A program made the position numbers and the translations under genes. 64,000 nt of DNA. Source: Erinaceus europaeus. Its lineage: Eukaryota; Chordata; Mammalia; Eulipotyphla; Erinaceidae. Below are positions 1,956-58,915 of this stretch, piece after piece. The DNA lies in NCBI RefSeq assembly GCF_950295315.1, contig NC_080185.1, forward strand, positions 46,667,237-46,731,236, in the 5' to 3' direction. The notes under the pieces were generated by a model. The model was given only the letters and a program-made list of their open reading frames with translations, was not told where the DNA came from and made no database searches. Position 1 is the stretch's first letter. The number at the start of each line of letters is the position of its first letter.

Positions 1956-1956
1956 T

Positions 1957-2268: not shown

Positions 2269-2394
2269 CCTATTTTTTTGTCCTGCTTCTACCAATCAGA
2301 AGATAGATGCAGAGGGAGTGAAAAAGAGCACAGCGCAAAATTTGCTTCCATGTGGTGGGAGCTGAGCTGTAACCTGGGTCCTGCACCTGGCAAA

Positions 2395-3160
2395 GTAGCA
2401 CATTAACCAAGAGAACTCATCCAGACACCTCCTTGAGACTGTCCCATCCGCCCCTCTCTATCCATCTGAATCCTGGGTCCCACAGGGGAAGCTACAACCG
2501 CTGGGCGGGACCAAATCCAGAAACCTGATTGGCCACCCCTCCCCTTCAACTGTAACTTCCATCTCCAACTCCTCTCTGGAACAGAGATGGCAGACATGAG
2601 AGGAGGGGCTGCAGAAATGGCACACAGGCAGTTTAGGCTCCTCTGAGGTGGCGGTCCGGTCACGATGCCCAAGGGTGAGACTTGGAGAAGCCTTGGATTT
2701 TGCCGCGCTGTTTGCCGCGACCAGCTACATGCATTTTCCATTCTTAGCTTTCCTTTCCCACAGCCGGCTGCTGGGCACTGCTGATAGAGTCTTTGAGGTC
2801 TCAGGTATCCTGGACAGACTTCTGTACGTCCAGTTTGCTGTCCCCCAAAAACCACAGCTCCCGATCAGCTGGACCTCTTGGCTCTTTGAGAGCCCTCCCA
2901 ATATGACACCCGCAGCTGAAGAAAAACAAGTCTTGCCCACATGCTGGCAAGGAAGGGGGAGGGGGCCTCTTCAGGCCACAGAGCTGCTCCAGCATGTCCA
3001 GCCTTCTGCTCTGGGAAGGAAAGCTGAGAAATGAACACACATATGTGGTCGTGGCACAGCATATTGCCAGTTCACTGCAGCAAAAACAAGGGTTCTCACA
3101 TTCTTACACTTGAGCGGGACTAACTGGAGGGTCAGACAGCACAATGGTTATTCAAAAGTC
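2395..3160 (+). repeat. GC-rich module B, left arm
   Basis: Same architecture as module A at a spacing of about 2.4 kb. The shared start is aagtagcacattaaccaag. It has a CCAAT-like gattggccacccc (about 2528), gcgggaccaaat, and two inverted copies of the agctttcctttcccaca segment (about 2745-2795 and 2990-3035). A 150-codon minus-strand frame (2403-2855) is identical to that in the mirror arm, but module A and D equivalents are short and broken. Confidence 0.75.
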
Positions 3161-3300
3161 TTATGCCTGACACTTCACTGTTCCAGGCTCATAAGCAAGA
3201 GCGGAGACATAGTTTGGTAGGAGTCAATCTCTCGCTATCTCTTTCATTCTCTCTCTCTCTCTCCCTCTCTCTCTTTCTTATAAATAAAATGTTTTACAAT
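3125..3300 (+). mobile_element. Diverged SINE-C-like element
   Basis: Head cagcacaatggttattcaaa with a (CT)-rich tail at 3243-3282. It occupies the same place relative to module B as 860-1015 does to module A, so the insertion predates duplication of the 2.5-kb unit. Confidence 0.5.
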
Positions 3301-3309
3301 TAGACCTAA

Positions 3310-3876
3310 CAACTGCATACAGTTGGAAAGGAGAGATGGATGACATGTCACACAGATATATGAGGAAATCTCCACACTTCACTAGTACTACAGTGTTTCA
3401 AAAAACAATTTAAAATTACGCTGAGAGTCCATCTCATACACCTGAGAATGGCCTACACCAGCAAAACAGGAAATGACAGGTGTTGGCCAGGTTGTGGAGA
3501 AAAAGGGACACTGCTATACTGTTGTGGCAAAGCAAACTAGTGCGGCCCCTTTGGAAACTGTTAAAGTCCTTTAACAAATAGAAATGGAATTACTTTCTGA
3601 TCCACTACGATCCCTCCTAGGCATTTATAGAGAGGACATGCAAACACCAATTGGAAGAGACAGGGGAGCAGTGGACTCATGCAGACACCAAGCCTTTGTG
3701 GTGACCGGTGGTGCTGCTGCTGGTGGTGGTGGTGATGGGGAGGGGGAGAAAGACTTAACTAAATCACAGCAAATATTCACACAACTTAGATGTGGTAATG
3801 GACTAATATTCTAGGCTGCCCAGAAAATCTGTTCTGTGTTCTCAGGACATGTGAATTCCAAAACTGTAAAGAGAGG
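3310..3876 (+). mobile_element. L1 fragment, sense
   Basis: Sense L1 ORF2 3' region, paralogous to 1437-1955 in the neighbouring unit; both share cctcctaggcattta. It carries a short GGT-rich expansion at 3710-3740. Mirror at 12741-13307. Confidence 0.6.
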
Positions 3877-4107
3877 GGGCCGGGCAGTAATGCAACAGGT
3901 TAAACACACATGGCTCAAAGTGCAAGGACCGGCCTAAGGATCCCAGTTCAAGCACTGGCCTCCCCACCTGCGTGGGTTTGGGGGGTGATTCACAAGCAGT
4001 GAAGAGGGTTGGAGGTGCTTTCTTTTCCCCTGCCTTCCCTTCTTCTCTCCATTTCTCTGTCCTATCCAATAACAACAACAGCAATGATGACAATAAGAAT
4101 ACATACA
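3877..4107 (+). mobile_element. SINE-A copy
   Basis: Diverged head (gtaatgcaacaggttaaac), B box cagttcaagcact, and a body carrying a small T/G-rich insertion near 3973-3990. Directly abuts the next SINE. Mirror at 12510-12740. Confidence 0.75.
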
Positions 4108-4322
4108 AAGGGGACGGGTGCTGGCACACCTGGTTAAGCACACACATTACAGTGTGCAGGGACCCGGTTCGAGCCTCCAGTCCCTACCTGCAGGGGGAAA
4201 GCTTTGCAAGGGGTGAAGCAGGGCTGCAGGTGTCTATATGTTTCTCTCCCTCTCTATAACGCCCATCTGTCTTGGTTTCTGGCTTTCTCTATCCAATACA
4301 TAAACATAATAAAAATTAACAC
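4108..4322 (+). mobile_element. SINE-B copy
   Basis: Head gctggcacacctggttaag and B box ccggttcgagcct, core cagggggaaagctttgc, short ataataaaa tail. Second element of a run of three head-to-tail SINEs (3877-4600). Mirror at 12295-12509. Confidence 0.8.
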
Positions 4323-4325
4323 AAA

Positions 4326-4600
4326 GGGAGTCGGGCTGTAGCGCAGTGGGTTAAGTGCAGGTGGTGCCACGCAAAGCACAAGGACCGGCCGAAAGGATCC
4401 TTGTTCGAGACCCGGCTCCCCACCTGCAGGGGAGTCACTTCACCACTGGTGAAGCAAGTCTGCAGGTGTCTTTCTCTCCCCCTCTCTGTCTTCCCCCTCC
4501 TCTCTCCATTTCTCTCTGTCCTATCCAACAACAATGACAACAATAATAACTACAACAGCAAAACAACAAGGGTAACGAAAGGGAATAAATAAAATAAACA
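4326..4600 (+). mobile_element. SINE-A copy
   Basis: Near-consensus head (tgtagcgcagtgggttaag) and a B box with one change (tgttcgagacc). Tail ends in gggaataaataaaataaac. In the right-arm partner this tail is followed by an AT-rich expansion absent here. Confidence 0.85.
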
Positions 4601-4659
4601 TTAAAAAAAATAATACAAAAAAGAAAGAAAAATAACACTTACTTATAAAAAAAAGAATA

Positions 4660-4790
4660 CATACAACAAGGGCAACAAAACGGAAAAAGTGACCTCCAGG
4701 AGCAACGGATTCATAGTGCAGGCACAGAGCCACAACGAGAACCCTGGAGGCAACACAAACAAAAACAAAAACAAAACAAAACTGTAAAGA
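4660..4790 (+). mobile_element. SINE-A-long 3' module fragment
   Basis: Only the tail of a long-form SINE-A: caagggcaacaaaacgg, then the 3' module starting gacctccaggagcaac and ending ccctggaggcaac. Mirror at about 11806-11900. Confidence 0.65.
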
Positions 4791-4948
4791 GACTAAGCAG
4801 TAGACAAAATGAATTACACCCTGCCTCCCATTTATGATAAAGCATGTGTAGGGCAGACTACACAGCAGACTAGTCCAGTGCAACACAAGTAGCTTCGTAG
4901 CTTCATTTTCCTCCTCTTCGGCCACTCAGAAGAGAAGCACAGGTAGTT

Positions 4949-4969
4949 AAAAAAAAAAAAAAAAAAAAA
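4949..4969 (+). repeat. Poly(A) tract
   Basis: About 20 consecutive A residues at the junction between SINE-derived sequence and module C. The mirror tract at 11600-11614 is shorter, as expected for a fast-changing homopolymer. Confidence 0.9.
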
Positions 4970-4999
4970 GGCCACAGCGAGCTAGCTTGCTTGCTCGAG

Positions 5000-5640
5000 T
5001 TGGGAAGTGATCAGTAACCTGGATTTTGATCTGGGAAAGCAGTTTATTAGCCCAGTGAGCTACTCCACCAGCCTTCCTCTGCGCCCCGCCCCATCTGGTC
5101 CCAGGGACCTGGAGGGGAAGCCCAATCCCACTGGGCGGGGCCAATATCCAGGAACCCGGATTACCACACCTCCCCCCCTCTTCTGCTTTAACTTCAGTCC
5201 CTGGTTCCTCACCAGAACAGGAAGAGCCCGCAGACATGGGGTGGGTGCCCTGTGTTGCATTGCGCCTCGGGAACCCACGAGTTGCAGACCCTGGTCTTCT
5301 AGGTGGAGTCCCAGGCAGACCACCCAGGGGTCAGTCTTCCAGACGCTTCGGTTTATGCTGCGACTGGCTGCTGCAACCAGGTACGTGTTTCTTAGCTTTC
5401 TTTTCCAGAGCGGGCTGCTGGGCCATGCTGGAGCGGCTTTGTGTTCTCCGGGGTTTCTTCTGTCCCCATGGCATGCTGGGAGGCCTTGTTTGTGCATGGG
5501 AGGCAGGTCTGTCTGGTAGCTGCCTTCTTGCCAAGGTGGCATCGGCTGCGCTCCGGAACCCAGGGCTGGTCCCGCTGATTGGAGCTGACATTTTAGCAGA
5601 GACTGTAAAGCAGGGCAGGCTTCATCCCCACTCGGGCATG
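5000..5640 (+). repeat. GC-rich module C, left arm
   Basis: The most GC-rich module, with a GC box next to a CCAAT box (actgggcggggccaat, 5130-5145). It contains only one of the two foldback segments (about 5392-5425). Overlapping open frames of 160-180 codons (5007-5519 plus, 5060-5542 minus, 5236-5778 plus) reflect high GC content; the largest ends in a lysine run encoded by a simple A tract. No domain recognised. Confidence 0.75.
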
Positions 5641-5832
5641 AGTTCTGCTTTTATTGGGGTTTTAAAGGCAGGGGTCTGGGCTTCTAGTGTACAGCAAGGG
5701 AAAGATAAAAAAAAAAAAAAAAAAAAGAAGAAACAGACAAAAACAGAGGCACAAGAAAAAATATGGCACAGTGGCTAAAATGATGAATTGAAGAATGCTA
5801 CTGGGTCCAGAGTTCAGTTCCTAGCATAGCAT
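5641..5832 (+). mobile_element. Module C tail with SINE-C-like head
   Basis: Follows agttctgcttttattgg, an A tract at 5708-5726, then a tRNA-like cacagtggctaaaatgatg with B-like agagttcagttcct. Module F at 9640-9870 has the same order, so this tail belongs to the module. Palindrome identity is visibly lower here (about 85-90% by eye). Confidence 0.5.
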
Positions 5833-6245
5833 GTGTCAGAGCTGATGGCCCTCTTCTCTCATGATGAAAAACATTCCTCCTTGATTCCCTACCCTACATG
5901 ATGTGTGGGATTGTGTGACTTGTTTTCTGTCTTTTATGCTTCGTGTTGAAGTTTCCCAGAGTCCATGGTACCTGAGACTGTCTTCCTAGGCATTGAATGA
6001 GATGACTTTAGGTGCCCATTGTGTCTCCAACATCTCAGTGATAGGCAGAGGGGCTACAGTACCCGGGGGCTATGGAAACAAGCAGGGATGAAAACTTGGT
6101 AAGAGGATTGCTTTCCTTATAGCCTCTGAGGCTGTAGGGCTGTGGCTAGTAAATGGCCGTTTTAGGAATGGGAGTGTTTAGATTTCTGAGGGATTTTTAC
6201 ACCATGCTCTTGGTGGACAAATAAAGCCATCTATTGAGCTCCACA
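5833..6245. other. Unassigned spacer sequence
   Basis: No ORF of note, no SINE head and no L1 block that I can recognise. Possibly old unique or decayed repeat sequence. Confidence 0.4.
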
Positions 6246-6249
6246 TATT

Positions 6250-6540
6250 CTCACAGCCACAGGGAACTGTTAATTAAAGGTCGCGTTACAGACCATTGGG
6301 TCCATTTGTTTTGTCATGGTGTCTTCAGCTGAGCTCTGGAACCAAGGGCAGGTCCAGCTGATTGGTGTTGACATTTTAGCAGAGGCTCTGTAAAGCAGGG
6401 TACGGTTCATCCTGACTTGGCCATGCATGGCTTGTGAAGTCACTTGGTCTGCTAGTCCAGGGCAACCGCAGGTGGGACCTGAAATGCAATAAATCTTGGA
6501 GCTTCTATCCATCACAACATTAATGGGGAAAATTAAAATT
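6250..6540 (+). repeat. Partial GC-rich module E
   Basis: Matches the 3' half of module C: gctctggaaccaaggg, ccagctgattgg, tgacattttagcagag, taaagcaggg (6335-6400) against 5551-5612. Same orientation as the left arm. Confidence 0.65.
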
Positions 6541-6544
6541 TTGG

Positions 6545-7180
6545 TCCCTTTGTCATATATTACATGACTACATGTGTGAGTTTATTTCTGGGCTCTTGAT
6601 TCAGTGCTATTGATCCAAGTGTCCATTTTTATAGATCTTTATAGTATAAACTGAAGTTGAGGAGTGTACCTTTTCTCAGGAGTGGTATGTGTATGTGTGG
6701 TTACCTGCAAATCTTTCATTCTTTCCTGTTTTCTTATGATCCCTTTAATATTTACATACACAAGTATGTTTAATGAATATATATTAATTAATATATATAT
6801 ATATATCATATGCAGCTTAAACCCTAAATGTCTGGCTTTTTTATTTTTAAATTTCACAGGTCCTGTAATACTGCAGAAAACAAACTTGGAAATGTTCAAA
6901 CACCGACTATGACAATATGGACTCTGCTACACTTAGTTCCCTGGAATGATACGAGTACAAAATAGTTTTCACAGCTGATTGCCTGCATAACAAAAATAAT
7001 TTTATGACCAGGATGAATTTTAACCAAATGACTCCAAATTTCTGACTTTAATCATGGTAAGAATCCTCTTACTAATAACTTAAAAGTCACACCTCCTATA
7101 ATGCTGTGCAGGAACCATTTTAGTTGTTTAACAGACTAGTAAATGAAGTGTAAACCTGTGCTTTGGGAAAAATGATACTT
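6545..7180 (-). mobile_element. L1 fragments, antisense
   Basis: The stretch gtgagtttatttctgggctc and following text matches the antisense of the L1 ORF2 middle as I know it from mammals. The later part (6900-7180) is less certain. An (AT)n run lies at 6779-6806. Confidence 0.5.
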
Positions 7181-7182
7181 CA

Positions 7183-7365
7183 AAAGTTGGTGGGGGACTG
7201 GGCAGCGGTCCACCTGATGAAGCCATGCCGCTGCTCCGCACCTGAGGGGGGGCAAGTCTCACAAGCAGTGAAGCATGCCTGCAGGTGTTTCTCTTTCTCT
7301 ACCACCCCCTCCCCTCTCAATTTCTCTCAGTTCTATCAAATAAAGTAGACAGAAAAAACGGAAAA
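7183..7365 (+). mobile_element. Degenerate SINE-B copy
   Basis: Head worn (ggactgggcagcggtccacc) but the core is clear: cacaagcagtgaagcatgcc, then a CT-rich body and tctatcaaataaag. Confidence 0.55.
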
Positions 7366-7480
7366 ATAAAATAGCTGCCAGGAGCAGTGGATTCCTGGTC
7401 CATTCACAGGGCCTCAAGGACAGCTCTTATGGCAAAAGAAATCAGTGGACAGAAAAACTGTATGAAAATAAATTATCCTG

Positions 7481-7697
7481 GGGCCAGGTGGTGGCACACC
7501 TGGTTAAGTGCTCACATCACAGTGCACAGGTTCAAGCCCCTGGTACCCACCTGCAGGGGGAAAGCTTCACAAGTGGTGAAGCAGGGCTGCAGGTGTCTCT
7601 CTGTCTCTTTCCCTCTGTATCTCCCCTTTCCCTCTCAAAGTCTCTGTCTCAATCCAATAATAAATAAATAATAATAAAATGAATAAATAAATAATCC
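7481..7697 (+). mobile_element. SINE-B copy
   Basis: Head ggtggcacacctggttaag, B box ggttcaagcccc, core ctgcagggggaaagcttc, tail of repeated aataaat units. Confidence 0.85.
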
Positions 7698-7754
7698 TAT
7701 GACATATTGACAGTATTCAAATGAAAGTTATGAGTGTTTATTTTAATTTGAACT

Positions 7755-8288
7755 GCTATTTTGCCACCAGGGTTACCTCTGGGGCTTAGTGCCTGGATGA
7801 TTCTATTGCTCCTAGTAGCCAATTTTTTAAAGATTTTTTTATATTTTATTTATTTTCCCTTTTGTTGCCCTTATTTTATTGTTGTAGTTGTTGTTACTGT
7901 TGTCATTATTGATGTCCTCATTGTTGGATAGGACAGAGAGAAATGGAGAAAGGAGGAGAAAACGGGGGGAGAGAAAGATAGACACCTGCAGATCTGCTTC
8001 ACTGCCTATGAAACGACTCCCCTACAGGTGGGGAGCCAGGGGCTCAAGCCAGTATCCTTATGCCGGTCCTTCCGCTTTGCACCATATGCGCTTAACCTGC
8101 TGCTCTACCACCTGGCTCCCACCAATTTTTTTTTTAATAGAGGGTGAGAGAGAGAGGAAGACAGAAGGAGAAACATCACAGCACTATTCCATTTCAGTTT
8201 CCTCCCTGCATGTGGCCAGGACCTCAAACCTGGATTGTAGTACATGGTAATGTATGAAGTTTACTAGATGAACTACCTACTGGCCCCA
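7755..8288 (-). mobile_element. Older SINE split by a SINE-A insertion
   Basis: Flanks 7755-7829 and 8120-8288 look like one older minus-strand SINE. The copy of ccaatttttt at 7820-7829, repeated at 8121, fits a target duplication made by the nested SINE-A. Confidence 0.45.
7830..8119 (-). mobile_element. SINE-A copy, nested
   Basis: Reversed tail ttcccttttgttgccctt, ggataggacagagagaaatg core and head ending ctctaccacctggctccc. Full length. Confidence 0.85.
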
Positions 8289-9055
8289 ATTGTTTAAATT
8301 GTAATGATTTGTCTTTTTTCTTTTTACAGTACATATGGTTTTGCTTTTTAAATTCAGTGTTTGTTATTACTTTATTTACTTGTCATAACCAGGGTTTTGC
8401 CACTCCGAGCTGACTTATTCAGATGAGGGTAGGGAATAATCCAGAGTACCAAAGTTTTCTCCAGTGTAGTGGACTGAGGTCAAACCAGCTTCATAGACAC
8501 GGCAAAGCAGCATACTATCCAGATAAGCTCTTAAGCCCACCCAGATTAGTATTCTTTTTTTTCTTGTATTGGGAATTTAATAATGGTATACAAAATTGTA
8601 AGATTTCAGGGGTATAGTTCTTTTCCTAACCTACCACCACAGTTCTGTGACCTCCACCATTACCCTCTTAGGAGGATAAGTACTATAGTTTTCACAGTCT
8701 TAGCAACAGTTTTACTACTCTTTATTTTCAAAAGATTGTATGTTTTGTTTATATTGCAAATATGGACAAGCCATCCTATAGTTGCCTTTCAGAGAAATGT
8801 AGGTCATTTGATAAGTTATATATTATAACAATGAGAATCCTTCAACACATACAAAAAAACTGAAGGCTAAAACTCAGACTTTACCTCTTCCCCTCTCTAC
8901 CCAGTATTTTAATTACTTCTTTGGGAGAAACGATCATTTACAAGACTGTTGATACTGGTACACAGTTTTCCTGTCTCTCCATAGTAATTCGCAACACACC
9001 ACATTCCGCTAACTTATCTTCCTCCCCCATAGGATACTCGCATCCCCTCTCAGAC
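8289..9055. mobile_element. Probable antisense L1 3' sequence and unassigned DNA
   Basis: 8572-8720 resembles the other L1 3'-end copies here (taataatggtatacaaaatt, then agttctgtgacctccacc). The rest (8720-9055) is AT-rich with nothing I can name. Confidence 0.35.
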
Positions 9056-9059
9056 TCCT

Positions 9060-9900
9060 TTTAGAGTTCTAGGGAAATCACAGTTTGCAGTTTAGGGCCC
9101 ACTGGGGTGGAGGTCCAGTCAGGCCCTTCCATGGATAAGGATATGAGAAGTCTCAGTTCTGCCACTAACAGGTATGTGTGTTCCATTCTTAGCTTTTCTT
9201 TCCCAGAACAAGCTGCTGGGCCCTGCTGCAGTGGCCTTTGTGGTTTCAAGAGCCTCCCCCTATCCTCTCCAGCTTGCAGGCAACCTTTATCTACATTGTA
9301 ACTACAAGCAGCTGCAGCTGCCTTCTTGCCAATGCAGGATCCTGTGTGCTATGGAACTACTAGGAGGTCTGGCTGATCTGCAACTGTGGTTTGGGTGAAG
9401 ACCCTGTAAACTAGGGCTGGGGAATGTCCTCACTCAGACATACATAGCCTGTGAATTATTTTGGTCTGGCCCTGTCAAGGCAACCACAGGTGTAATTCGA
9501 ACTCAATATCTAGAAGTGTTTTTCCATAACAACATTAATTGGGAAACTTTAAAGCAAGTTTGTTGCTTCATTGCAACACAAGGGAAATTACAGATAAAAA
9601 ATAGAGAATGGGAGTCTGAGTTCTGCTTTTACCACAGTTAAAGGCAGGGAACTGGGTTTCTAGCTCTCACATTCTTTATTGGTGTATTTAAAATTTTAAG
9701 CATGGGAAGCTAGAGTACAGGAATGGAAGAACCATGAAAAATAAATAATAATAATAATAATAATAAAGCAGAAAAATAAAAGAATGGCACAATAGTAAAG
9801 CACTGAACCTAAGAGCATAAGGTCCACAGTTCAGTCCCCAGCATATCACCATCATAAGCCAGAGCTGATCAGGAGCAGAGCTGTGGTAAAATAATTAAGT
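9060..9900 (+). repeat. GC-poorer module F in spacer
   Basis: Contains gtggaggtccagtcagg, ttccattcttagcttttc, aagctgctgggccctgctg, and the same tail order as module C (gagttctgcttttaccac, A-rich tract, SINE-C-like head). An (AAT)n run is at about 9744-9766. Same orientation as the left arm. Confidence 0.65.
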
Positions 9901-10336
9901 CAATGAATATCAAAAAATAAATCATAAGCAAAATTGTAGTATTGAATAACATATATCTAGGATATATCCACCTCCATTCCTAGGGTACCTGATAGGAATT
10001 CCTAAGAATGAAATCATACTCCCTCTCTTCTTTAATCCAAAAGGGGCTAACTTGTTGTCATAGCAAGTTTGAGGAATAGTGATCCATAGGCTTTTTTTTT
10101 CCACTTAGCAAAGGGCAGGGGAAGAGGACACTAGGTTTGTACATTTGCATTGCTTGAAACATACTGCCTTCATATGGAAAATACTCCGCAATTCCATAAA
10201 TTCCTCTAATCTCAAAAGATCCCAAGCTCCCTCTGGCAAAAGGGAGGTGACTTCCACAAATAGAGGCTGTATTGTACTCTGGAAGGTCCAGACAGAAGAC
10301 TGGTCCAGATGTAAACACTGAAAAAAACAACAGGAT
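9901..10336. other. Unassigned spacer sequence
   Basis: Several short minus-strand frames (109 codons at most) without recognisable domains. It leads directly into an L1 3' end-like block and may be part of a longer degraded repeat. Confidence 0.35.
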
Positions 10337-10518
10337 GAGAGGGGTACAACTCCATACAATTCCTACCACCAGGACTCCGTATCCCATCCCCTCCTCTGAT
10401 AGCTTTCCTATTCTTTAACCCTCCAGGTGTATGGACCAAAGTATATTATGGGGTGCAGAAGGTGGAAGGTCTGGCTTCTGCAATTGCTTCCCTGCTGAAC
10501 ATGAGAGTTAATTTTTTT
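10337..10518 (-). mobile_element. L1 3'-end fragment, antisense
   Basis: Block gaggggtacaactccatac ... tatggaccaaag ... ggtctggcttctgcaattgc recurs at 21560, 21905, 24465, 30785 and 62651, and on the opposite strand at 28160. Its L1 identity is inferred from the 62651 copy, which is a typical truncated insertion. Confidence 0.55.
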
Positions 10519-10521
10519 TGT

Positions 10522-10720
10522 GGGGCCAGGTGGTGGCGCACCTCCTTAAACTCACATATTACAGTGTTCAAAGACCCAAGTACAAGCCCCCCACCTACAA
10601 GGGTAAAATACAAAAATGGTGAAGCAGGGCTTCAAGTATCTCTCCCTCTCTATCTTCCCCACCCCTCTCAATTCCACTGTCTCTATCCAATAATAAATAA
10701 ACAAAAATAATTTTAAGAAA
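10522..10720 (+). mobile_element. SINE-B copy
   Basis: Head gccaggtggtggcgcacctc, weak B box (agtacaagcccc), tail ataataaataaac. Ends 21 bp before the right palindrome arm begins. Confidence 0.75.
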
Positions 10721-10929
10721 ATTTTAATTGCTACCAGAGATATGCTATGCTAGGAACTGAACTCTGGACCTAGCAGCATATTTCAATTCATTACTTTAGC
10801 CACTGTGCCATATTTTTCTTGTGCCACTGTTTTTGTCTGTTTCTTCTTTTTTTTTTTTTTTATCTTTCCCTTGCTGTACACTAGAAGCCCAGACCCCTGC
10901 CTTTAAAACCCCAATAAAAGCAGAACTCA

Positions 10930-11568
10930 TGCCCGAGTGGGGATGAAGCCTGCCCTGCTTTACAGAGTCTCTGCTAAAATGTCAGCTCCAATCAGCGGGA
11001 CCAGCCCTGGGTTCCGGAGCGCAGCCGATGCCACCTTGGCAAGAAGGCAGCTACCAGACAGACCTGCCTCCCATGCACAAACAAGGCCTCCCAGCATGCC
11101 ATGGGGACAGAAGAAACCCCGGAGAACACAAAGCCGCTCCAGCATGGCCCAGCAGCCCGCTCTGGAAAAGAAAGCTAAGAAACACGTACCTGGTTGCAGC
11201 AGCCAGTCGCAGCATAAACCGAAGCGTCTGGAAGACTGACCCCTGGGTGGTCTGCCTGGGACTCCACCTAGAAGACCAGGGTCTGCAACTCGTGGGTTCC
11301 CGAGGCGCAAAGCAACACAGGGCACCCACCCCATGTCTACTAGCTCTTCCTGTTCCGGTGAGAAACCAGGGACTGAAGTTAAAGCAGAAGAGGGGGGAGG
11401 TGTGGTAATCCGGGTTCCTGGATATTGGCCCCGCCCAGTGGGATTGGGCTTCCCCTCCAGGTCCCTGGGACCAGATGAGGCGGGCGCAGAGGAAGGCTGG
11501 TGGAGTAGCTCACTGGGCTAATAAACTGCTTTCCCAGATCAAAATCCAGGTTACTGATCACTTCCCAA
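10930..11568 (-). repeat. GC-rich module C, right arm
   Basis: Mirror of 5000-5640 with a handful of base changes (for example a shorter C-run near 11393-11401 and changes near 11310-11360). The GC/CCAAT pair is preserved at 11425-11440. Confidence 0.8.
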
Positions 11569-11805
11569 CTCGAGCAAGCAAGCTAGCTCGCTGTGGCCTT
11601 TTTTTTTTTTTTTAACTACCTGTGCTTCTCTTCTGAGTGGCCAAAGAGGAGGAAAATGAAGCTACGAAGCTACTTGTGTTGCACTGGACTAGTCTGCTGT
11701 GTAGTCTGCCCTACACATGCTTTATCATAAATGGGAGGCAGGGTGTAATTCATTTTGTCTACTGCTTAGTCTCTTTACAGTTTTGTTTTGTTTTTTTGTT
11801 TGTGT

Positions 11806-11900
11806 TGCCTCCAGGGTTATCGCTGTGGCTCTGTGCCGGCACTATGAATCCGTTGCTCCTGGAGGTCACTTTTTCCGTTTTAATACCCTTATTGTATGTA
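11806..11900 (-). mobile_element. SINE-A-long 3' module fragment
   Basis: Mirror of 4660-4790: gcctccagggttatcgc to gctcctggaggtcac, then the reversed linker. About as diverged as the rest of the inner arm. Confidence 0.6.
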
Positions 11901-11939
11901 ATCTTTTTTTTTAAGGGAGTGTTATTTTTCTTTCTTTTT

Positions 11940-12045
11940 TGTGTTAATTTTTAATATATTTTTATATTTTTATTATATTTTATATTTTTATTATATTTTT
12001 ATTTTATTATTTTTATATTTATATTAATATATATTTTATTTATTC
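11940..12045. repeat. AT-rich expansion in right arm only
   Basis: A run of tttttatatttttattat-like units about 50 bp longer than the left-arm equivalent (4600-4620). It is the largest indel between the arms and sits in the SINE-A tail. Confidence 0.85.
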
Positions 12046-12291
12046 CCTTGTTGTTTTACTGTTGTAGTTATTATTGTTGTCATTGTTGTTGGATAGGACA
12101 GAGAGAAATGGAGAGAGGAGGGGGAAGACAGAGAGGGGGAGAGAAAGACACCTGCAGACTTGCTTCACCAGTGGTGAAGTGACTCCCCTGCAGGTGGGGA
12201 GCCGGGTCTCGAACAAGGATCCTTTCGGCCGGTCCTTGTGCTTTGCGTGGCACCACCTGCACTTAACCCACTGCGCTACAGCCCGACTCCC
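12046..12291 (-). mobile_element. SINE-A copy
   Basis: Mirror of 4326-4600, with an identical 75-codon shadow frame on plus (12074-12301) confirming arm identity. Confidence 0.85.
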
Positions 12292-12294
12292 TTT

Positions 12295-12509
12295 GTGTTA
12301 ATTTTTATTATGTTTATGTATTGGATAGAGAAAGCCAGAAACCAAGACAGATGGGCGTTATAGAGAGGGAGAGAAACATATAGACACCTGCAGCCCTGCT
12401 TCACCCCTTGCAAAGCTTTCCCCCTGCAGGTAGGGACTGGAGGCTCGAACCGGGTCCCTGCACACTGTAATGTGTGTGCTTAACCAGGTGTGCCAGCACC
12501 CGTCCCCTT
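12295..12509 (-). mobile_element. SINE-B copy
   Basis: Mirror of 4108-4322; the translated shadow frame is unchanged. Confidence 0.8.
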
Positions 12510-12740
12510 TGTATGTATTCTTATTGTCATCATTGCTGTTGTTGTTATTGGATAGGACAGAGAAATGGAGAGAAGAAGGGAAGGCAGGGGAAAAGAAAGC
12601 ACCTCCAACCCTCTTCACTGCTTGTGAATCACCCCCCAAACCCACGCAGGTGGGGAGGCCAGTGCTTGAACTGGGATCCTTAGGCCGGTCCTTGCACTTT
12701 GAGCCATGTGTGTTTAACCTGTTGCATTACTGCCCGGCCC
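12510..12740 (-). mobile_element. SINE-A copy
   Basis: Mirror of 3877-4107, sharing its private T/G-rich body insertion. Confidence 0.75.
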
Positions 12741-13307
12741 CCTCTCTTTACAGTTTTGGAATTCACATGTCCTGAGAACACAGAACAGATTTTCTGGGCA
12801 GCCTAGAATATTAGTCCATTACCACATCTAAGTTGTGTGAATATTTGCTGTGATTTAGTTAAGTCTTTCTCCCCCTCCCCATCACCACCACCACCAGCAG
12901 CAGCACCACCGGTCACCACAAAGGCTTGGTGTCTGCATGAGTCCACTGCTCCCCTGTCTCTTCCAATTGGTGTTTGCATGTCCTCTCTATAAATGCCTAG
13001 GAGGGATCGTAGTGGATCAGAAAGTAATTCCATTTCTATTTGTTAAAGGACTTTAACAGTTTCCAAAGGGGCCGCACTAGTTTGCTTTGCCACAACAGTA
13101 TAGCAGTGTCCCTTTTTCTCCACAACCTGGCCAACACCTGTCATTTCCTGTTTTGCTGGTGTAGGCCATTCTCAGGTGTATGAGATGGACTCTCAGCGTA
13201 ATTTTAAATTGTTTTTTGAAACACTGTAGTACTAGTGAAGTGTGGAGATTTCCTCATATATCTGTGTGACATGTCATCCATCTCTCCTTTCCAACTGTAT
13301 GCAGTTG
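12741..13307 (-). mobile_element. L1 fragment
   Basis: Mirror of 3310-3876. Antisense L1 ORF2 on plus, recognisable by catttcctgttttgctgg and gagatggactctcag. Confidence 0.6.
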
Positions 13308-13316
13308 TTAGGTCTA

Positions 13317-13492
13317 ATTGTAAAACATTTTATTTATAAGAAAGAGAGAGAGGGAGAGAGAGAGAGAGAATGAAAGAGATAGCGAGAGATTGACTCCTAC
13401 CAAACTATGTCTCCGCTCTTGCTTATGAGCCTGGAACAGTGAAGTGTCAGGCATAAGACTTTTGAATAACCATTGTGCTGTCTGACCCTCCA
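13317..13492 (-). mobile_element. Diverged SINE-C-like element
   Basis: Mirror of 3125-3300, with a (GA)n run at 13343-13370. Confidence 0.5.
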
Positions 13493-14222
13493 GTTAGTCC
13501 CGCTCAAGTGTAAGAATGTGAGAACCCTTGTTTTTGCTGCAGTGAACTGGCAATATGCTGTGCCACGACCACATATGTGTGTTCATTTCTCAGCTTTCCT
13601 TCCCAGAGCAGAAGGCTGGACATGCTGGAGCAGCTCTGTGGCCTGAAGAGGCCCCCTCCCCCTTCCTTGCCAGCATGTGGGCAAGACTTGTTTTTCTTCA
13701 GCTGCGGGTGTCATATTGGGAGGGCTCTCAAAGAGCCAAGAGGTCCAGCTGATCGGGAGCTGTGGTTTTTGGGGGACAGCAAACTGGACGTACAGAAGTC
13801 TGTCCAGGATACCTGAGACCTCAAAGACTCTATCAGCAGTGCCCAGCAGCCGGCTGTGGGAAAGGAAAGCTAAGAATGGAAAATGCATGTAGCTGGTCGC
13901 GGCAAACAGCGCGGCAAAATCCAAGGCTTCTCCAAGTCTCACCCTTGGGCATCGTGACCGGACCGCCACCTCAGAGGAGCCTAAACTGCCTGTGTGCCAT
14001 TTCTGCAGCCCCTCCTCTCATGTCTGCCATCTCTGTTCCAGAGAGGAGTTGGAGATGGAAGTTACAGTTGAAGGGGAGGGGTGGCCAATCAGGTTTCTGG
14101 ATTTGGTCCCGCCCAGCGGTTGTAGCTTCCCCTGTGGGACCCAGGATTCAGATGGATAGAGAGGGGCGGATGGGACAGTCTCAAGGAGGTGTCTGGATGA
14201 GTTCTCTTGGTTAATGTGCTAC
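13457..14222 (-). repeat. GC-rich module B, right arm
   Basis: Mirror of 2395-3160 with no difference seen. Read on plus it shows tctcagctttccttcccaga (13588) and, about 240 bp later, the inverted partner gggaaaggaaagctaag (13857-13873). Confidence 0.8.
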
Positions 14223-14348
14223 TTTGCCAGGTGCAGGACCCAGGTTACAGCTCAGCTCCCACCACATGGAAGCAAATTTTGCGCTGTGCTCTTTTTCACT
14301 CCCTCTGCATCTATCTTCTGATTGGTAGAAGCAGGACAAAAAAATAGG

Positions 14349-14551
14349 AGGCTGGCGATAGTGAAGCAGGTTAAGCACACGGGATGGTTAAGCGCACATG
14401 GAGCAAAGTTCAAGGACCAGAGTTAGGATCCGAGCTCCCCACCTGCAGGGGAGTCTCTTCACAGGAGGTGAAACAGGTCTGTAGGTATCTATCTTTCTTG
14501 CCCCATCTCTGTCTTCCCCTCTGCTAACCATTTCTCTCTGTCCTATCTAGC
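14349..14551 (+). mobile_element. SINE-A copy, tail-truncated
   Basis: Mirror of 2066-2268; the head begins near ggaggctggcgatagtg. Joined to the SINE-B head without a tail. Confidence 0.75.
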
Positions 14552-14660
14552 ACTGCCTCAACACAGGCAAAACGTTCCCCATGCATGTGGGGGCTGGGTG
14601 CTTAAACCCAGATCTTGTGCAGTGTAGCATGTGCTCTCAGCCTGGTGTGCTACAGCGTGG
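14552..14660 (-). mobile_element. SINE-B head, truncated
   Basis: Mirror of 1957-2065. The unit-D copy at 17211-17412 keeps the body missing here. Confidence 0.6.
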
Positions 14661-14661
14661 A

Positions 14662-15180
14662 CACTCTCCTGTACATTATTTATCATGACAATTAGGGGCA
14701 CAACTAGTACCTGTTACCTTCTACTTGGTCTCTTTAGTTCTTTTGAAATTCACATTTCTTTGGAACATATACTCAACTTTCTGTGCCTTCCGACTATTAC
14801 TGCATCATAACATATATGTTGTGTGAGTATTTTCTCTGACTTGTGAGAGTGTCTCACCGTCATCACCACAACCACAGCCAACACTAAGACTTGGTGTCTG
14901 TGTGACTCCAGCACTCCCATTTCTCCTCTAGTTGGTGTTTGTGTGTCCTTTGTGTAAATGCCTAGGAGGGACATTGGGAGACCATCAGTAATTGAATTAT
15001 TTCTGCTTAAAGACTCAGTAATTTTCAAAGGGGCTACAGCAGTTTGCATTCCCATAAATAGTGTAAGTGATTTTTTTTTCTTTTTTTGCTGAACCTCAGC
15101 TACACCTGTCATCTCCAGTTTTGTTGATTTAGAGGATTGTCACATGTATGAGATGGACTCTCAGTGTCATTTCCATGTCC
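14662..15180 (-). mobile_element. L1 fragment
   Basis: Mirror of 1437-1955. Also about 95% similar by eye to 17413-17990 outside the palindrome, showing an older direct duplication. Confidence 0.6.
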
Positions 15181-15210
15181 AATTCTTTATTTTCAAACTT
15201 ACTTATTTTA

Positions 15211-15476
15211 AAATATTTATTACCTTTTGTTGCCCTTGTTATTTTATTGTTGTAGCTATTGATGTCATCTGTTGTTGGATAGGACAGATAGCAATGGAGA
15301 GAGGAGGGGAGACAGAGAGCAGGAGAGAAAGATAGACATCTGCAGAGTTGCCTCACTGCTTGTTCAGGGACTCCACTGCCGATGGGGAGCTGGGGCTCGA
15401 ACCGGGATCCTTATGCTGGTCTTTGCATTTTGTGCCGGCCTGTGCTTAACTAGCTGTGCTACTGCCCCTCTCCCTC
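15211..15476 (-). mobile_element. SINE-A copy
   Basis: Mirror of 1141-1406. Reads ttgcccttgttattttattg to gctgtgctactgcccctctc. Confidence 0.85.
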
Positions 15477-15601
15477 TATGTCCGTTTCTAATATTCTCGA
15501 AGGGGAAAAGTTCTTCATATGTCTGTGCACCATATCTGTCTCTTCTTTAGTGATATATCTATTCATTATATTGACCTACTACTGAAAACATATTTTAATA
15601 A

Positions 15602-15757
15602 GAGATGTGTAGAGAAAGATACAGAGAGAGAGAGAGAGAGAGAGGGAGAGGGTTAACTATGAGACCACTCCTCACTCTGTTTTATGGGTTTGGAATTTTA
15701 GCCTTAGGCAGGCAAGTCTTTTCCATTAACCATTGTGCAAGTCTGACCTGCCCACTA
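15602..15757 (-). mobile_element. Diverged SINE-C-like element
   Basis: Mirror of 860-1015 with a (GA)n run at 15622-15650. Carries the single-base and 1-bp indel differences that shift the arm register. Confidence 0.5.
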
Positions 15758-16615
15758 AGAACTCCAGTTGGCCCCGCCCAAGTCAAGTGACAGAATGAGA
15801 AGGCTTTCTCCTCCTCCTTCCCCCCACCCCCACCCCTCCTCCCGCCGCAATCAACTACTCCCATGCATTGTGCGGCCATGTATTATATTAGTGTTGAGTT
15901 CTCAGCTTTCCTTTTTCCAGAGCGGCAGGCTGGACATGCTGGAGCACCAGAGTGGGCTCAAGGGCCGCTTGCATCGTCTCCACTGTTGGGGGCAGCCTTT
16001 CTCTTTCTTGTATCTAAGGCAGCTGGTAGCCGCATTCTTGCCGCAGGGGTATCTGGAGGGCTCTCAAACTGTTAAAAGGTCGGGCTGAACGGGAGCTGCT
16101 GTTTGGGGGTTGATTGTGCAAACCAGGGGTGACAAACACCTGTCCAGGATACCTGAGACAAAGGCTGCTCTCAGAGGGTTAAGGATAGCAGGGTCCACTG
16201 AGCTCCCAGAGGCTCCTCCAGCAGCGCCCAGCAGCCCACTCTGGGAAAGGAAAGCTAAGAATGGAAAATGCGTGTAACCTGGTCGCGGCACGCAGCGCGG
16301 CAAAGACCCCGGCTTCTCCCTTGGGCAACCTGACTGCACCTCCACCTCAGAGGACCCTGAACTGCCAAGGGTGCCCTTCCTGCCGTCCCTCCCTCCCCCT
16401 CATCTCTGCCATCTCTGTTCCTGAGGAGCAGTGGGCTGCAGTGAAAGCTGAAGGGGGATGAGTAGTTAATCAGGTTTCTAGATTTGATCATGCCTAGGGC
16501 GTTGTAGCTTCTCCTGTAGGGTCCAGGATCCAGGTGGATCAGGGAGAGGTGGGCTGGCACATTCCCAAGATGGTGTATGGAATAGTTCTCTTGGTTAATG
16601 TGCTACTTTGCCAGG
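15735..16615 (-). repeat. GC-rich module A, right arm
   Basis: Mirror of 1-880. The module continues smoothly to ggaaggacccaggttactg outside the arm as seen in this window. Confidence 0.75.
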
Positions 16616-34507: not shown

Positions 34508-34646
34508 GGTTCTCTGGGCCCTTTCTATAGCCTTACTATGTGTGACTCATCTCCTTCTTTATATCCTTGCTCATGACTGTGAGCACAGAAACCCTTCTCT
34601 GTTTGGCTACTTGAGGTATATTGGTTTTGCTGGACTCATGACAACT

Positions 34647-36041
34647 TCACCCGCCCAAGCTGGTTTCTGCCCAGGAAGATCTACCTGCGAACAAGTCCTG
34701 GCCCTCTCAACTTACATTGAAAATGGATTCCAGAAGAATTTAAAGACGGGTACTATCTTTGTTGATCTCACAGCAGCCTATGACACGGTCTGGCACCGTG
34801 GTCTCCTAGTCAAGATCTCAAGATTCCTGCCTCCATGGGTGGCCAACACTATATAGTTTCTTCTCCAAAACAGAAGATTCCGGGTGCATCTGGGTGACAA
34901 GTCTAGCAGATGGAGACTTGTCTCAAGTGGCCTCCCCGAGGGCTCTGTTCTGGCTCCTACACTATTTAATATTTACATCAATGACCCTCCAGAAACTTCT
35001 TCAAGGAAGTTCATCTACGCCGATGACATCTGCTGTACAACTCAGGCATCCAAGCTCGACATCCTCAAGGAAACACTCACGAAAGACATGTCTCTGATAT
35101 CTGATTACTGTAAAAAATGGCGACTAATCCCTATCACTGCAAAAACGGTATCATCTGTTTTCCATCTACACCATGCCTCGGCTTCGCGTGAGCTTAATGT
35201 GCAGCTTGACGATACGAGAATCCGGCATGAAGCCCAGGCAGTCTATCTTGGTGTTACTCTAGATCGCACTCTGTCATTTCACAAACATCTCATAAAAACT
35301 GCAGCAAAGGTGGGTGCGAGGAATAACATCATTGCAAGACTGGCCAGCTCCTCATGGGGCGCGAGCGCTTCCACACTGCGATCATCATCTCTGGCATTAT
35401 GCTATTCCACTGCAGAATACTGTGCCCCAGTATGGTTCCGTAGCCCCCATGTCCACTTGGTCGATTCCAAATTATATTCCTCCATGAGGATAATTTCTGG
35501 AACCATCCGTTCCACCCCGGTTCCATGACTGCCAGTTCTTAGCAACATCACCCCGCCAGATATTCGTTGGGATGCGGCATCATCTAAGTTCATTTCCCAC
35601 GTCTACGCTCGACCGGACCTGCCAATATACGCGGATATCTTCGCCCACCCTGTCCAACGCTGGACGTCTCGTCACCCAATCTGGTCCCCTACGCTTACAC
35701 TGAACTTCTCTGTTCCAGTCTCTTGGAAACAGAGTTGGCAGTCAGCTGAGGTAAAGAACAAACATCTCATCACAGACCCCTGCAAGCGTCAACCCGGCTT
35801 TGACCTAGCACGTTATGATTGGGCCCTCCTCAATCGCTATCGAACAGGCCATGGCCGGTGCGCCGCTATGTTCCATCGCTGGGGAGCCAGAGATGACCCG
35901 AACTGCCCCTGCGGCTACAGACAGACTATGACCCACATAATCAACGACTGCCACCTCTCCAGATTCAAAGGAGGTCTCGAAACTTTACATCAGGCTCAAA
36001 CTGACGCTGTTGACTGGCTACGGAAGAAGGGCAAACGCTAG
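34647..36041 (+). pseudogene. Reverse transcriptase ORF remnant (LINE)
   Basis: One reading frame of 464 codons plus stop (36039-36041), with nonsense codons TAG at 34854-34856 and TGA at 35526-35528 and no frameshift. RT motif A is FVDLTAAYD (34758-34784, catalytic D at 34764-34766). The GLPEGSVLAP block (about 34935-34965) precedes the catalytic box YADD (35016-35027). Later come LGVTLDRTLSFHKH (thumb-like) and a C-terminal C-x-C ... H ... C pattern (NCPCG, THIINDC) as in jockey-type elements. The endonuclease and the first RT motifs are missing because of 5' truncation. Not functional. The region ahead of 34647 that is open in the same frame is host block Z, not element. Confidence 0.93.
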
Positions 36042-36048
36042 AAGAAGA
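34647..36048 (+). mobile_element. 5'-truncated non-LTR retrotransposon, not L1-like
   Basis: A 1402-bp insertion flanked by a perfect 9-bp duplication atgacaact (34638-34646 and 36049-36057). Removing it restores continuity with the paralogous block near 50475 (ggactcatggtaactattaa). It begins inside the RT domain and ends shortly after a stop codon with agaagaagaa, so it has a short GAA-type tail and no poly(A). Known family behaviour: LINEs are copied from the 3' end and often truncated at the 5' end. The protein is unlike mammalian L1, L2/CR1 or BovB/RTE and resembles jockey-superfamily-like elements common in arthropods, including those labelled tick transposons. That family placement is from memory and needs a search. 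Confidence 0.93.
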
Positions 36049-36057
36049 ATGACAACT

Positions 36058-36904
36058 AGTAAAATGCCATATTGAGAATGTACCTTACTGAGCATAAGAT
36101 GGGGTACTTCAGTCTCTGCCTATCTCTGAGATCTCAGGCAAACTTGAACTGCTAATTATATTTCTGTGCATCAGTTCAAATCCTATGTTGCCTCATGGGA
36201 AGTTGTCACTTTTAGGTCATGAAAACAGGCTAAGAAATTACTACAGAGATGAGGTCATGCGGGGTGGTATATCAGACTGAAGCATGCACTCAGGTTAGAC
36301 ATATATTGATGTTTTTTTCTTCAGCAAAGGAAGGAGAGAGAGAGGATAATGGACTGAAAAGGGAGCATCTTGGCATTTCTGAAGCAGTACTGCCATCAGT
36401 TTTTTTCAATCTGGTGAACCCTCAACTGTTACTTTCTTGGTAGAAAGGAGAGCGAGTCAGAGACCATGGATAGTTTGTGTAGAAGATCTGGCATAAAGTT
36501 GTCAGTGGGGAAAGGGCATATAAGGGAATCATGAGCAACCTTAGACATGTAAGTCCAATGCTGTACCAACCAAGCCATCTCCCTAGTTGCTACAAGCTTG
36601 AGGCTGCCTGATTTCAGGGAAAAGGAGATATAACCCTACTCATCCCTACTATTGTATTGTTCCCACACAAAATGAAGGGCAAAAGGTAGAGGACAAAGAG
36701 TAGAAGGAACAGAAAAAAAGAAGGCAAATCTCTACATCACATTATTTTGCGTGAGTAAGCACTGTGAGCAGTGGAGACCCTTGGCCTTTGATTACTTTAA
36801 CTCATTGACCAGGTTGACCCTGTATTCTTCCCACCAATGATAGGCTAGGTTACCTCATACTTTTGTGCAGATACTGTGACTTGGAGTCTTTTCATCATTG
36901 TCGT
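36058..36904. repeat. Block Z, part after the LINE insertion
   Basis: Continues the sequence interrupted at 34646 and matches 50480-50960 (ggggtacttcagtctctgcc / gggatacctcaatctctgct; tcttcagcaaagg). Beyond 36470 the similarity fades and I see no recognised element. Confidence 0.6.
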
Positions 36905-36920
36905 AAAAATTAACTGGGAG

Positions 36921-37175
36921 GGGAGTCAGGCTGTAGCGCAGCGGGTTAAGCAAACATGGCACAAAGCACAAGGATCCCGGTTTGAGCCCCCAGCTCCCCA
37001 ACTGCAGGGGAGTCGCTTCACAGGCAGTGAAGCAGGTCTGCAGGTGTCTTTCTCTCCCCCTCTTTGTCTTCCCCTCCTCTCTCCATTTCTCTCTGTCCTA
37101 TCCAACAACAATGACATCAATAATAAAACAACAATAAAACAACAAGGACAACAAAAGGGAATAAATAAATATTTT
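36921..37175 (+). mobile_element. SINE-A copy with target duplication
   Basis: The 16-bp duplication aaaaattaactgggag lies at 36905-36920 and 37176-37191. Clean head gctgtagcgcagcgggttaa. Confidence 0.95.
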
Positions 37176-37374
37176 AAAAATTAACTGGGAGAACCCTACT
37201 TAGATAAGAGCTTGCAGAATGGAGCCTCAGATATTGGAGCCCGCCCCCGCCCCCATGGCCAAAATGGTGAGCAAACTAGCTTGTGTTACTCAGACTGGAC
37301 AAGTATGGAATTTTTTTTTTTCTTCAACAAAGGGTGGAGGGAGATAACTTGGGTGATGGGCTAATAAGGACATC

Positions 37375-38710
37375 TTAGTATTTCTGAAACAATACTGCCA
37401 TCAAGTGGATCACATTTACCAACCCCAAGAATTCTACACTATCATTCTTTGGGATGTGTAATAAGTAGAGAGACAACAGACAGTATCTCTAAAAGGTCCA
37501 GAGCCCCACCAGAGTAATGGGAAGCAGTGGAGGAATCATGAGTCAAACATTCGAGATGTGAAAAATGCAGAAGTGAGTCAGCCAGACCAAATGCGAGCCC
37601 AACCGGGCACCAGATGCAAAACTAGGAGACCTGTTGGCTGCCATGTTGGCAGGGACTACAGATTGCTGCTTTGACAGAGCCCAAGCCAGGAGATGTAGAC
37701 ATTCATCTTTGCATCCCCTTCCCAGGCAGGAACCTGGGTGCAGGAATGTGGGGTGCAGCATATAGAAACTCTCTTAAATCCATGTAACAACCAACCATAA
37801 TACACTGATGACATGGATTTCTGCTGCCATTGGAGAATAAATACTCTGGATAATAGGTGTAGCTTTGTTCACAGACATGAGAAATATAAGCATGTGTTCC
37901 AGTTCTGAGCCTTTATTGGTCCTCAAAATGGTTAATTTTGCTCCGGTGCTAAAGTCATAGTACCTGGCTTCAATTCCTTATATCAGAACATGGCAACTTG
38001 TGTACTGGGAGATAAGTACATCAGGCTCAACCTGACGCTGTTGACTGGCTACGGAAGAAGGACAAACGCTAGAAGAAGAAGTCATCTGGAAGATCATACA
38101 CATAGCCATACACAAAGCCCCGAATTCAAACCATGGAAGCATGGCAAAAAGTCAGCCTGGGTGCAGTGGAATCACACATGTGCCAGACCCTGGTGACACA
38201 AAAACAAAACAAATCAAACACATGATAATTCAGTTATATTTAATCATACCTATTTAATCATATGTAATCATTTTTGTGCTTTCTAAATCAATACCATCCT
38301 TTTTTAGATATAATATAAACCTTTCAATTATATAAATTCCACGTTGTTTAAGTTTAATTTCTTGAATTTCTCCAGCAGACAATATTTCTTACTACTATTT
38401 ACTCATATTTCTTCTCTCTGAAATATGTAATTTGTCGATTTCAGTGAGTAAGTGGTTCTAAGAAATGTACAAAAATATTATGTTTGCTCTTTGTTCAGAT
38501 TTGAACACTAGAGAATTTTCTGTTATGATTTTTTTCCCTGCACATTCATGAGAGAACGTTTGCTTTGTTTCACACCAGTAGCAGTTACAGTATTAATAAA
38601 AAGCATTTTGACTGAGTAGAAAGCAATGATAAAGATAAAAATAGATAATATGTAGTGTGATATTGCATTTATTATTATTAGTGTGTTTTATGTGAAGTAT
38701 CTTTTAAGAA
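37375..38710 (+). repeat. Block W, copy 1
   Basis: Matches 52530-53720 and, in part, 48770-49360. Starts with the recurrent actgccatcaagtggat motif and includes gctgccatgttggcaggg. Open frames are under 80 codons. Unknown function; likely an old repeat or a decayed duplicated sequence. Confidence 0.65.
38017..38080 (+). mobile_element. 64-bp 3'-end copy of the non-L1 LINE
   Basis: Matches 35987-36048 of the large copy with two substitutions, and ends in the same agaagaagaa tail. The paralogous block at about 53410 lacks it. Flanking aagt at both sides suggests a short target duplication. Confidence 0.85.
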
Positions 38711-57161: not shown

Positions 57162-57885
57162 TGTGTGCATTAATCTCTAGATTCCACATACGAGTAAAGT
57201 CATTTTCAATGGTCTTTCACCTCCTTACTTATTTTTCTAAACATAATCACTTCCTATTACATCCATTTTCTTTCAAAAGATAAGACATCACTAGTTTTAT
57301 TGTACAGTAGTGCTTCATGGAGAATATATTGTATAACTTCTCTATCTACTCACATATTGATGGATATTTAATCTGCTTCCACTGTTTTCCTCCTGTGAAA
57401 AAATGCAAGTATAGAACAGTGTTTCTACCTTTGACCCAGTACCATTCCATACCATTTTAATTACTATAACTTTGTACTGTAATTTGATGACAGGTACTTT
57501 GATTCATCTACTCTATTTTTCTCAGGATTGCTTTAGCAATTAGGGGACTTTTGTGTTTCCAAACACGTTTTAGTCACGTTTGTTTTAGTCCCTTAATGAA
57601 TATTAGTGGAATTTTTATAAAAATTGCATTGAATCTGTATAATGCTTTGGGGAGTATGCTCCTTCTAATGATGATGGTTCTAGCAATCAATGAGGAAGGA
57701 ATACCTTTTCCTTGTCTCTTCTATTTCTTTTAACAATGACTATAGGGTTTGGTATACAAATGTTCCACTTCCTTTGTTAAATTTATTTCAGGTTCCTGAT
57801 TGTTTTATAATACAACGGTTAGTGTGACTGTTTTCCTAATTTCTTTCACTTCTATTTCATATTTGTATTCATAAGGATGGGCAAT
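57085..57885 (-). mobile_element. L1 fragment, antisense
   Basis: agattccacatacgagtaaa ... attgcattgaatctgtataa ... ccacttcctttgttaaattt. Contains (AT)n at 57121-57158. Confidence 0.78.
57121..57158. repeat. (AT)n microsatellite
   Basis: About 19 AT units; cruciform-prone. Confidence 0.97.
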
Positions 57886-57889
57886 GTGT

Positions 57890-58915
57890 TGGCACTTGCT
57901 ATTTCTGGTACAATACTGCCATCAAGTGGACGCTTTTTACCAATTGCTTTAGCCCTGTACCGTTACTTCCTAGGGAGGAATGACAAGGGAGTGAAGTCAT
58001 GGACAGGTGACATACACAGAATGCCAAGATTCACTGAAATAGAAAAATGTACATTTGGATATCTTGGTAAAAGTCATATAGGGTCTTGGAAATTCTAGAA
58101 ACAGTAACCCAGACCACACGAACAACTCTCTGAACTTTTGTGCGCCATGTTTGGGTGGCTACGGAAGCCTACAGGTTCCTGAATTCTCATTGAGCAAGCG
58201 CCTCCATGGGGAATTCTTTTTTGGCATCCTTTTCTTTTAGAGCAAGGTCTATTGAAGCACAGGGACCTGGACACCTCTATGATCATGGTAGAGTCAAAGG
58301 AAAGAACAACTGTGATTCTTCTGGCTTCTGACGGAATTAGATGCTGAGCTGGAGAAACTGCTTGGTCTCTAGGCAAGGGAACTATATCTGATTATTGTGT
58401 CCTATGGGCAAACGCTAGAAGAAGAAGAATTGTGTCCTATATTTCTTGTGAGATGAGAATCCGGGCACTTCACTAGCCATCCTCACTCCTGTACTGGGGC
58501 TTGTGATCCAGAAATCAGAAGCTGTCAGAGCTTCAGCTCCTTCCTGGATATTGTGGCGGCTACTGAGGCCACACCCCCACGGCCCCCATGATATCTGAGC
58601 CTGGAAATTCTAGGCACCTGGAAGCCTTGGTGGGTGACCTTTGCTCATAGATCTTCCTATAGCTTTTAGTCTGCATTGTCGATATTTGGTGACTGGCATG
58701 AGCTCCAGAACATTCTAAATGTCCTACACAGCATTTCCAGCTTTTATTACTGACAACTCTAGAGACAGACAGCAGATACTGGAGTTCTTACTCTAACAGC
58801 TCCCACATGACAGCACTGTTGTAGAGAAGTATGAAAATTCCTCTGTGTTGCTTTTCCCTCTACCCTTTGTAATGACAAAAAAAAAAAAGCCCAGAGAACA
58901 GCCAAGAATTGGTAT
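57890..58915 (+). repeat. Block X, copy 4
   Basis: Closest relative is 60135-61200 (about 93-95% identical by eye), so the last duplication here was local, with a step of about 2.24 kb that includes the antisense L1. Confidence 0.8.
58406..58428 (+). mobile_element. 23-bp 3'-end copy of the non-L1 LINE
   Basis: Only gggcaaacgctagaag plus aagaaga, matching 36029-36048 of the large copy. Flanked by the perfect 12-bp duplication attgtgtcctat (58394-58405 and 58429-58440). The paralogous position at about 60635-60650 (attgttgtgtcctgtatttc) is empty. Confidence 0.92.

Follow-up and report, generated by a model that had tools for sequence, protein, structure and literature searches.

A dead, 5'-truncated non-L1 LINE copy in hedgehog DNA, very probably a member of the known Vingi-1 family

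The stretch of Erinaceus europaeus DNA analysed here, 64,000 nucleotides long and called the window below, contains at 34647–36048 a segment that we assign, with a probability of about 0.92, to the Vingi-1 family known from hedgehogs, as a copy that is 5'-truncated and dead; the family name is inferred, from the literature. The Vingi clade, the sister of Ingi in the reverse transcriptase (RT) phylogeny, goes back to a 2011 report on hedgehogs by Kojima, Kapitonov and Jurka and is said in that work to be without RNase H, unlike Ingi. A foreign-looking LINE does lie in this mammalian DNA, but most likely it represents the family reported in 2011 and is no new finding; the main inference of the original prediction, that a LINE entered this mammal horizontally and retrotransposed there, is already in print. 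The parts of the copy and its immediate flanks are as follows.

34638–34646, no strand: left target-site duplication ATGACAACT, an exact match to the right copy
34647–36048, + strand: 5'-truncated Vingi copy, 97.0% identical to positions 1677–3078 of a full-length copy (3078 bp) at another genomic site
34647–35525, + strand: reverse transcriptase region (RVT_1), with an in-frame stop TAG at 34854–34856
35529–36041, + strand: C-terminal region with a CxC...H...C pattern and without a Pfam match, directly preceded by an in-frame TGA (35526–35528)
36039–36041, + strand: the family's own stop codon TAG, at the end of the C-terminal region
36039–36048, + strand: stop codon and GAA-type 3' tail, without a separate 3' UTR
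36049–36057, no strand: right target-site duplication ATGACAACT, an exact match to the left copy

The sequence features from which a LINE insertion had been predicted were all recovered. The 9-bp duplication is exact at both ends; the frame holds the motifs FVDLTAAYD, GLPEGSVLAP and YADD, and both RT pieces match Pfam RVT_1, with scores (30.5 and 35.6 bits) just above the cut-off of 29.6; the predicted C-terminal C-x-C/H/C pattern is present as CPCG...H...C; and the 3' end consists of TAG directly followed by AAGAAGA, a GAA-rich end with no poly(A). The predicted frame, 34647–36041, is not open, and its two in-frame stops (TAG at 34854–34856, TGA at 35526–35528) mean that the copy is dead. No Pfam match of any kind, and hence no RNase H, was found downstream of its RT (E up to 10, filters on). 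The RT piece 34857–35525 had no relative among phage records or viral contigs and no solved structure in a sequence search at E 1, and Rfam at gathering score gave no match anywhere in the window. The CpG observed/expected ratio is 0.69 in the copy versus 0.23 in the remaining window, and none of 299 other window stretches of equal length rises above 0.43, as would be expected if CpG-rich sequence had been inserted recently.

The segment belongs to a large family in its own genome. A 36-base probe for the 3' end, which counts 3' ends whatever the length of the copy, gave 39,302 matches with at most 3 mismatches in the 2.72-Gb genome and 15,695 exact matches genome-wide, while the reversed control gave 0 in both cases; with tens of thousands of 3' ends, this is not a lone insert. 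When the window segment was used as query, all 40 matches scored, out of 5352 first-look candidates and with the window copy included, were 97–100% identical and spanned nearly the whole query. The 3078-bp copy likewise gave 40 of 40 scored matches at 97–100% (out of 8197 candidates), 39 of which begin at its positions 1–4, and the long copies are spread over many chromosome-size contigs.

Six copies were taken with extra upstream DNA to define the full-length structure, and three of them (L021, L022 and L024) share a common 5' end and a length of about 3.08 kb. In the full-length element a leader of some 90 bp at the 5' end precedes a single frame of about 990 codons, which encodes, in order, an AP-type endonuclease, a reverse transcriptase and a Cys/His-rich end; the GAA repeat adjoins the stop codon directly. 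L021 and L024 align to residues 1–990, and L022 to residues 20–990, of the full-length relative P0122 at 56–58% identity, and P0122 carries PF03372/PF14529 (endonuclease) together with PF00078 (RT); neither it nor P0002, the nearest protein found, has a Pfam match to RNase H at E 0.01. Endonuclease and RT thus lie in one frame in the family, and the window copy retains the RT part alone. In all three full-length copies examined the frame is interrupted; of 19 other copies (L002–L020), 14 show no premature stop or frameshift within the last 1.19 kb at the 3' end. At locus L035, positions 2139–2756 are joined to 2889–3078 across an internal gap. GAA is present in all copies displayed, with a tail length that varies between copies. 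In L028 and L029 an array of roughly 100–150 bp, with self-matches at 6-bp steps, directly follows the Vingi tail; such tails may seed microsatellites.

Target-site duplications were assessed in 26 copies, namely the window copy and 25 of 38 loci, 13 loci having been set aside beforehand: L001, L005, L011, L012, L014, L015 and L026 as duplicates of copies used, L009, L016 and L018 for inversions, L032 because the element touches the locus edge, L035 for its internal gap, and L027, which is the second 3' end in the window itself. An exact terminal duplication of at least 8 bp was found in 15 of the 26 copies versus 1 of 155 displaced control comparisons, so the duplications are not due to chance; in the remaining 11 copies the duplications measure 2–7 bp, no better than in the controls. 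The 5' truncation point differs from copy to copy. Target duplications, many copies and the RVT_1 match together bear out the prediction that a non-L1 LINE had retrotransposed in the host genome. Confinement to a contaminant contig, which had been named as an outcome that would overturn that prediction, was not what we found, and the probability that the element reflects assembly contamination or a chance resemblance is close to nil: 39,302 3'-end matches stand against 0 in the control, long copies lie on many chromosome-size contigs, copies carry target duplications, and one SINE unit recurs 44 times in the same window. We have rejected contamination on the first two of these points.

Divergence between the window copy and 19 others (L002–L020) is 2.68–3.02% (mean 2.93%), and the 19 differ among themselves by 1.59–3.19% (mean 2.26%). 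If half of their mean distance, about 1.1%, is taken as the own age of the others, that of the window copy is then 1.8%. Mammalian rates are 2–4 changes per billion years per site, at which the window copy and the copies compared with it would be roughly 3–9 million years old. Some copies are older, being 92–95% identical to one full-length copy, so the family did not spread in one burst only; the copies were picked either as best matches or for an identical 3' tail, and their age spread is accordingly biased, toward young copies in the case of best matches. Over 34857–36048 the window copy has the most private changes relative to L002–L020 (17 versus 6–13). As a separate observation, CpG transitions make up 1 of these 17 changes and 1–8 of the 6–13 in each other copy, a share in the window copy below that of nearly all others despite its high CpG ratio.

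Two further Vingi 3' ends in the window had been overlooked in the original prediction.

38017–38081, + strand: second Vingi 3' end, a GGACAAACG variant
58406–58428, + strand: third Vingi insertion, 23 bp long after truncation, flanked by 12-bp duplications ATTGTGTCCTAT (58394–58405 and 58429–58440)

Thirty-eight of 40 scored genome matches to the second 3' end lie in other places and are identical over 65 bp. It is enclosed by a possible 7-bp duplication, AAGTCAT, at 37952–37958 and 38079–38085, within which 58 bp of non-Vingi sequence precede it; the pair could mark a longer chimeric insert or be due to chance. When this piece was searched against the genome, 39 of 40 scored matches spanned just the last 65–68 bp and one was the window itself, so no nonautonomous family is shown for this piece. 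Upstream of the two small 3' ends, 37355–37422 and 57876–57943 are 77% alike over 70 columns, followed by a weaker stretch at 62%, and are taken for an older repeat unrelated to Vingi. SINEs are dense: a unit at 36871–37095, which we presume to be tRNA-like and to resemble an Erinaceus SINE, has 45 matches in the window, itself included, the other 44 at 69–88% identity. The window also holds a large inverted repeat with arms at 1–5832 and 10742–16615 and a spacer of about 4.9 kb, in which 1–4634 and 11983–16615 are 99.5% identical over about 4.6 kb, and 4584–5832 and 10742–11974 are 95.7% identical over 1.25 kb. Its outer arm touches the left edge of the window and may continue beyond, and the structure at 1–16615 reflects either a palindromic duplication of recent date or a fold-back in the assembly.

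The origin of the family is a matter apart from its identity, and here we lean, with reservation, towards horizontal transfer into the hedgehog lineage followed by expansion. The nearest protein, P0002, is 95% identical and comes from an ENA contig of 2072 bp; its longest stretch is 94.5–97.6% identical to copies in all 20 loci examined, and no relative of it was found among genome contigs of bacteria and archaea. In one locus, L013, the antisense strand of the element matches residues 1–20 of P0002, which suggests that P0002 is itself a 5'-inverted copy. We infer that P0002 most likely represents hedgehog DNA within a metagenome and not a donor. Beyond P0002, relatives reach at most 63% identity (in the best 120 of 1362 and the best 120 of 721 matches), and none falls at 62–95% among the best 120 of 1362. 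The second of these observations agrees with an arrival from elsewhere, while the first means that no close donor has come to light.

Few of the relatives carry organism names (6 of the best 120 of 1362, 3 of the best 120 of 721). The closest named one among the matches listed is from an eel, Synaphobranchus kaupii (60% identity over 72% of the query), with a second eel protein at 50% over 45%. The named arthropods among these matches are Phlebotomus (49%), Cordylochernes, a pseudoscorpion (47%), Nilaparvata (46–47%), Choristoneura and Leguminivora (both 45%) and Uroleucon (43%). From 183 proteins, all from two relative searches, 34 rows were chosen for a tree with a midpoint root for drawing only. 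It places the window copy with eel and unnamed sequences in one group of 16, which is fully supported, and the six named arthropods without exception in the other group, of 18. A long branch (0.53) carries the window copy and P0002 within the fish-containing clade, a further point in favour of horizontal transfer.

The suggestion that hedgehog ectoparasites such as ticks might have been the source fares poorly against these results. Vingi-clade elements do exist in arthropods, as described for locust in PMC3391268, but nothing found here supports a recent direct transfer from an ectoparasite: the six named arthropods listed, at 43–49%, are more distant than the eel protein at 60% and occupy a separate branch of the tree, and no tick or mite name occurs in the best 120 of 1362 and the best 120 of 721 matches, although few of these are named and the closer, unnamed relatives may include an arthropod. 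We set an arthropod source aside and regard such a transfer as very improbable.

A more serious, if still doubtful, alternative is vertical survival, in which a Vingi lineage of early amniotes persisted toward hedgehogs, while other mammals lost it or retain it as fossils. Vingi has been reported from reptiles too, a human Vingi relic, X12_LINE, is on record (PMC5753468), and one pre-amniote Vingi protein fossil in human is given in PMC9004415. By the same accounts the human relics are few and old, whereas the hedgehog family is young, with copies about 3% apart; an unbroken active line in hedgehogs only would also be unusual. Horizontal transfer, which we prefer, draws further support from the closeness of the best-matching copies to each other (mean 2.26% among 19) and from the abstract of the 2011 work, which reportedly found related elements in none of 33 further mammalian genomes. 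The copies at 92–95% to one full-length copy, which imply more than a single burst, count against it. Transfer of hedgehog Vingi has already been proposed in the literature, PMC3183009 placing it among "likely horizontal transfers in mammals".

Among known systems, Vingi-1_EE and Vingi-1_AAl agree with the present family in host type, in a single endonuclease–RT frame without RNase H and in their many copies, and no difference was found, the likeness being one of description. The Vingi-1_EE family presumably includes nonautonomous derivatives made by internal deletion. Dfam files Vingi under I-Jockey, and by that naming the "I-Jockey" LINE copies counted in the African hedgehog presumably belong to the Vingi family. 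That count is 4476 in PMC12026660, whose main text does not use the word Vingi; for Erinaceus europaeus, PMC3183009 gives 311 copies of Vingi-1N3_EE under 1% divergence.

The arthropod Jockey clade resembles the present family in endonuclease plus RT, a CxC-type C-terminus and 5' truncation but has a poly(A) tail where the hedgehog element has GAA, and none of the named arthropod relatives listed (43–49% identity) is labelled Jockey. The predicted "jockey-superfamily-like" affinity therefore holds in the broad sense of the Dfam label and fails for Jockey proper, since the element ends in a GAA microsatellite and not in poly(A). Mammalian L1 shares target-primed insertion, 5' truncation and 5' inversion with the hedgehog family, and differs from it in its poly(A) tail and in its duplications, about 15 bp in human L1 according to PMC4245944 versus 8–13 bp where detected here. 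BovB/RTE is likewise a non-L1 LINE of some mammals, for which horizontal transfer has been published (PMC6036668); no such name appears on the matches listed.

Vingi would move by target-primed reverse transcription, to judge from the form of its copies. The endonuclease would nick the target DNA and the enzyme would then copy Vingi RNA starting at its GAA 3' end; copying that often stopped early would yield 5' truncation, double priming would yield 5' inversion, and a short target duplication would be left behind at the insertion. Inversions of this kind, with an inverted 5' piece joined to a sense 3' part, are present in 3 of 20 loci (L009, L016 and L018), and the whole inverted inserts are flanked by duplications of 12 bp in L016, 12 bp in L018 and 11 bp in L009 (extended as L039), compared with 6 bp at most in displaced controls. 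Such structures are what target-primed reverse transcription combined with twin priming should produce, and the twin-priming signature is best known from L1. In the cell assays of PMC4245944, hardly any 5' inversions were seen outside L1 in human cells, the exception being one Nimb insert in chicken cells. Vingi 5' inversions with a twin-priming signature are a small extra for which we claim no priority. We judge it slightly better than an even chance that hedgehog Vingi is a natural non-L1 LINE undergoing twin priming in a mammalian host; if it is, inversions would follow from duplication length and host factors, and not from the L1 enzyme.
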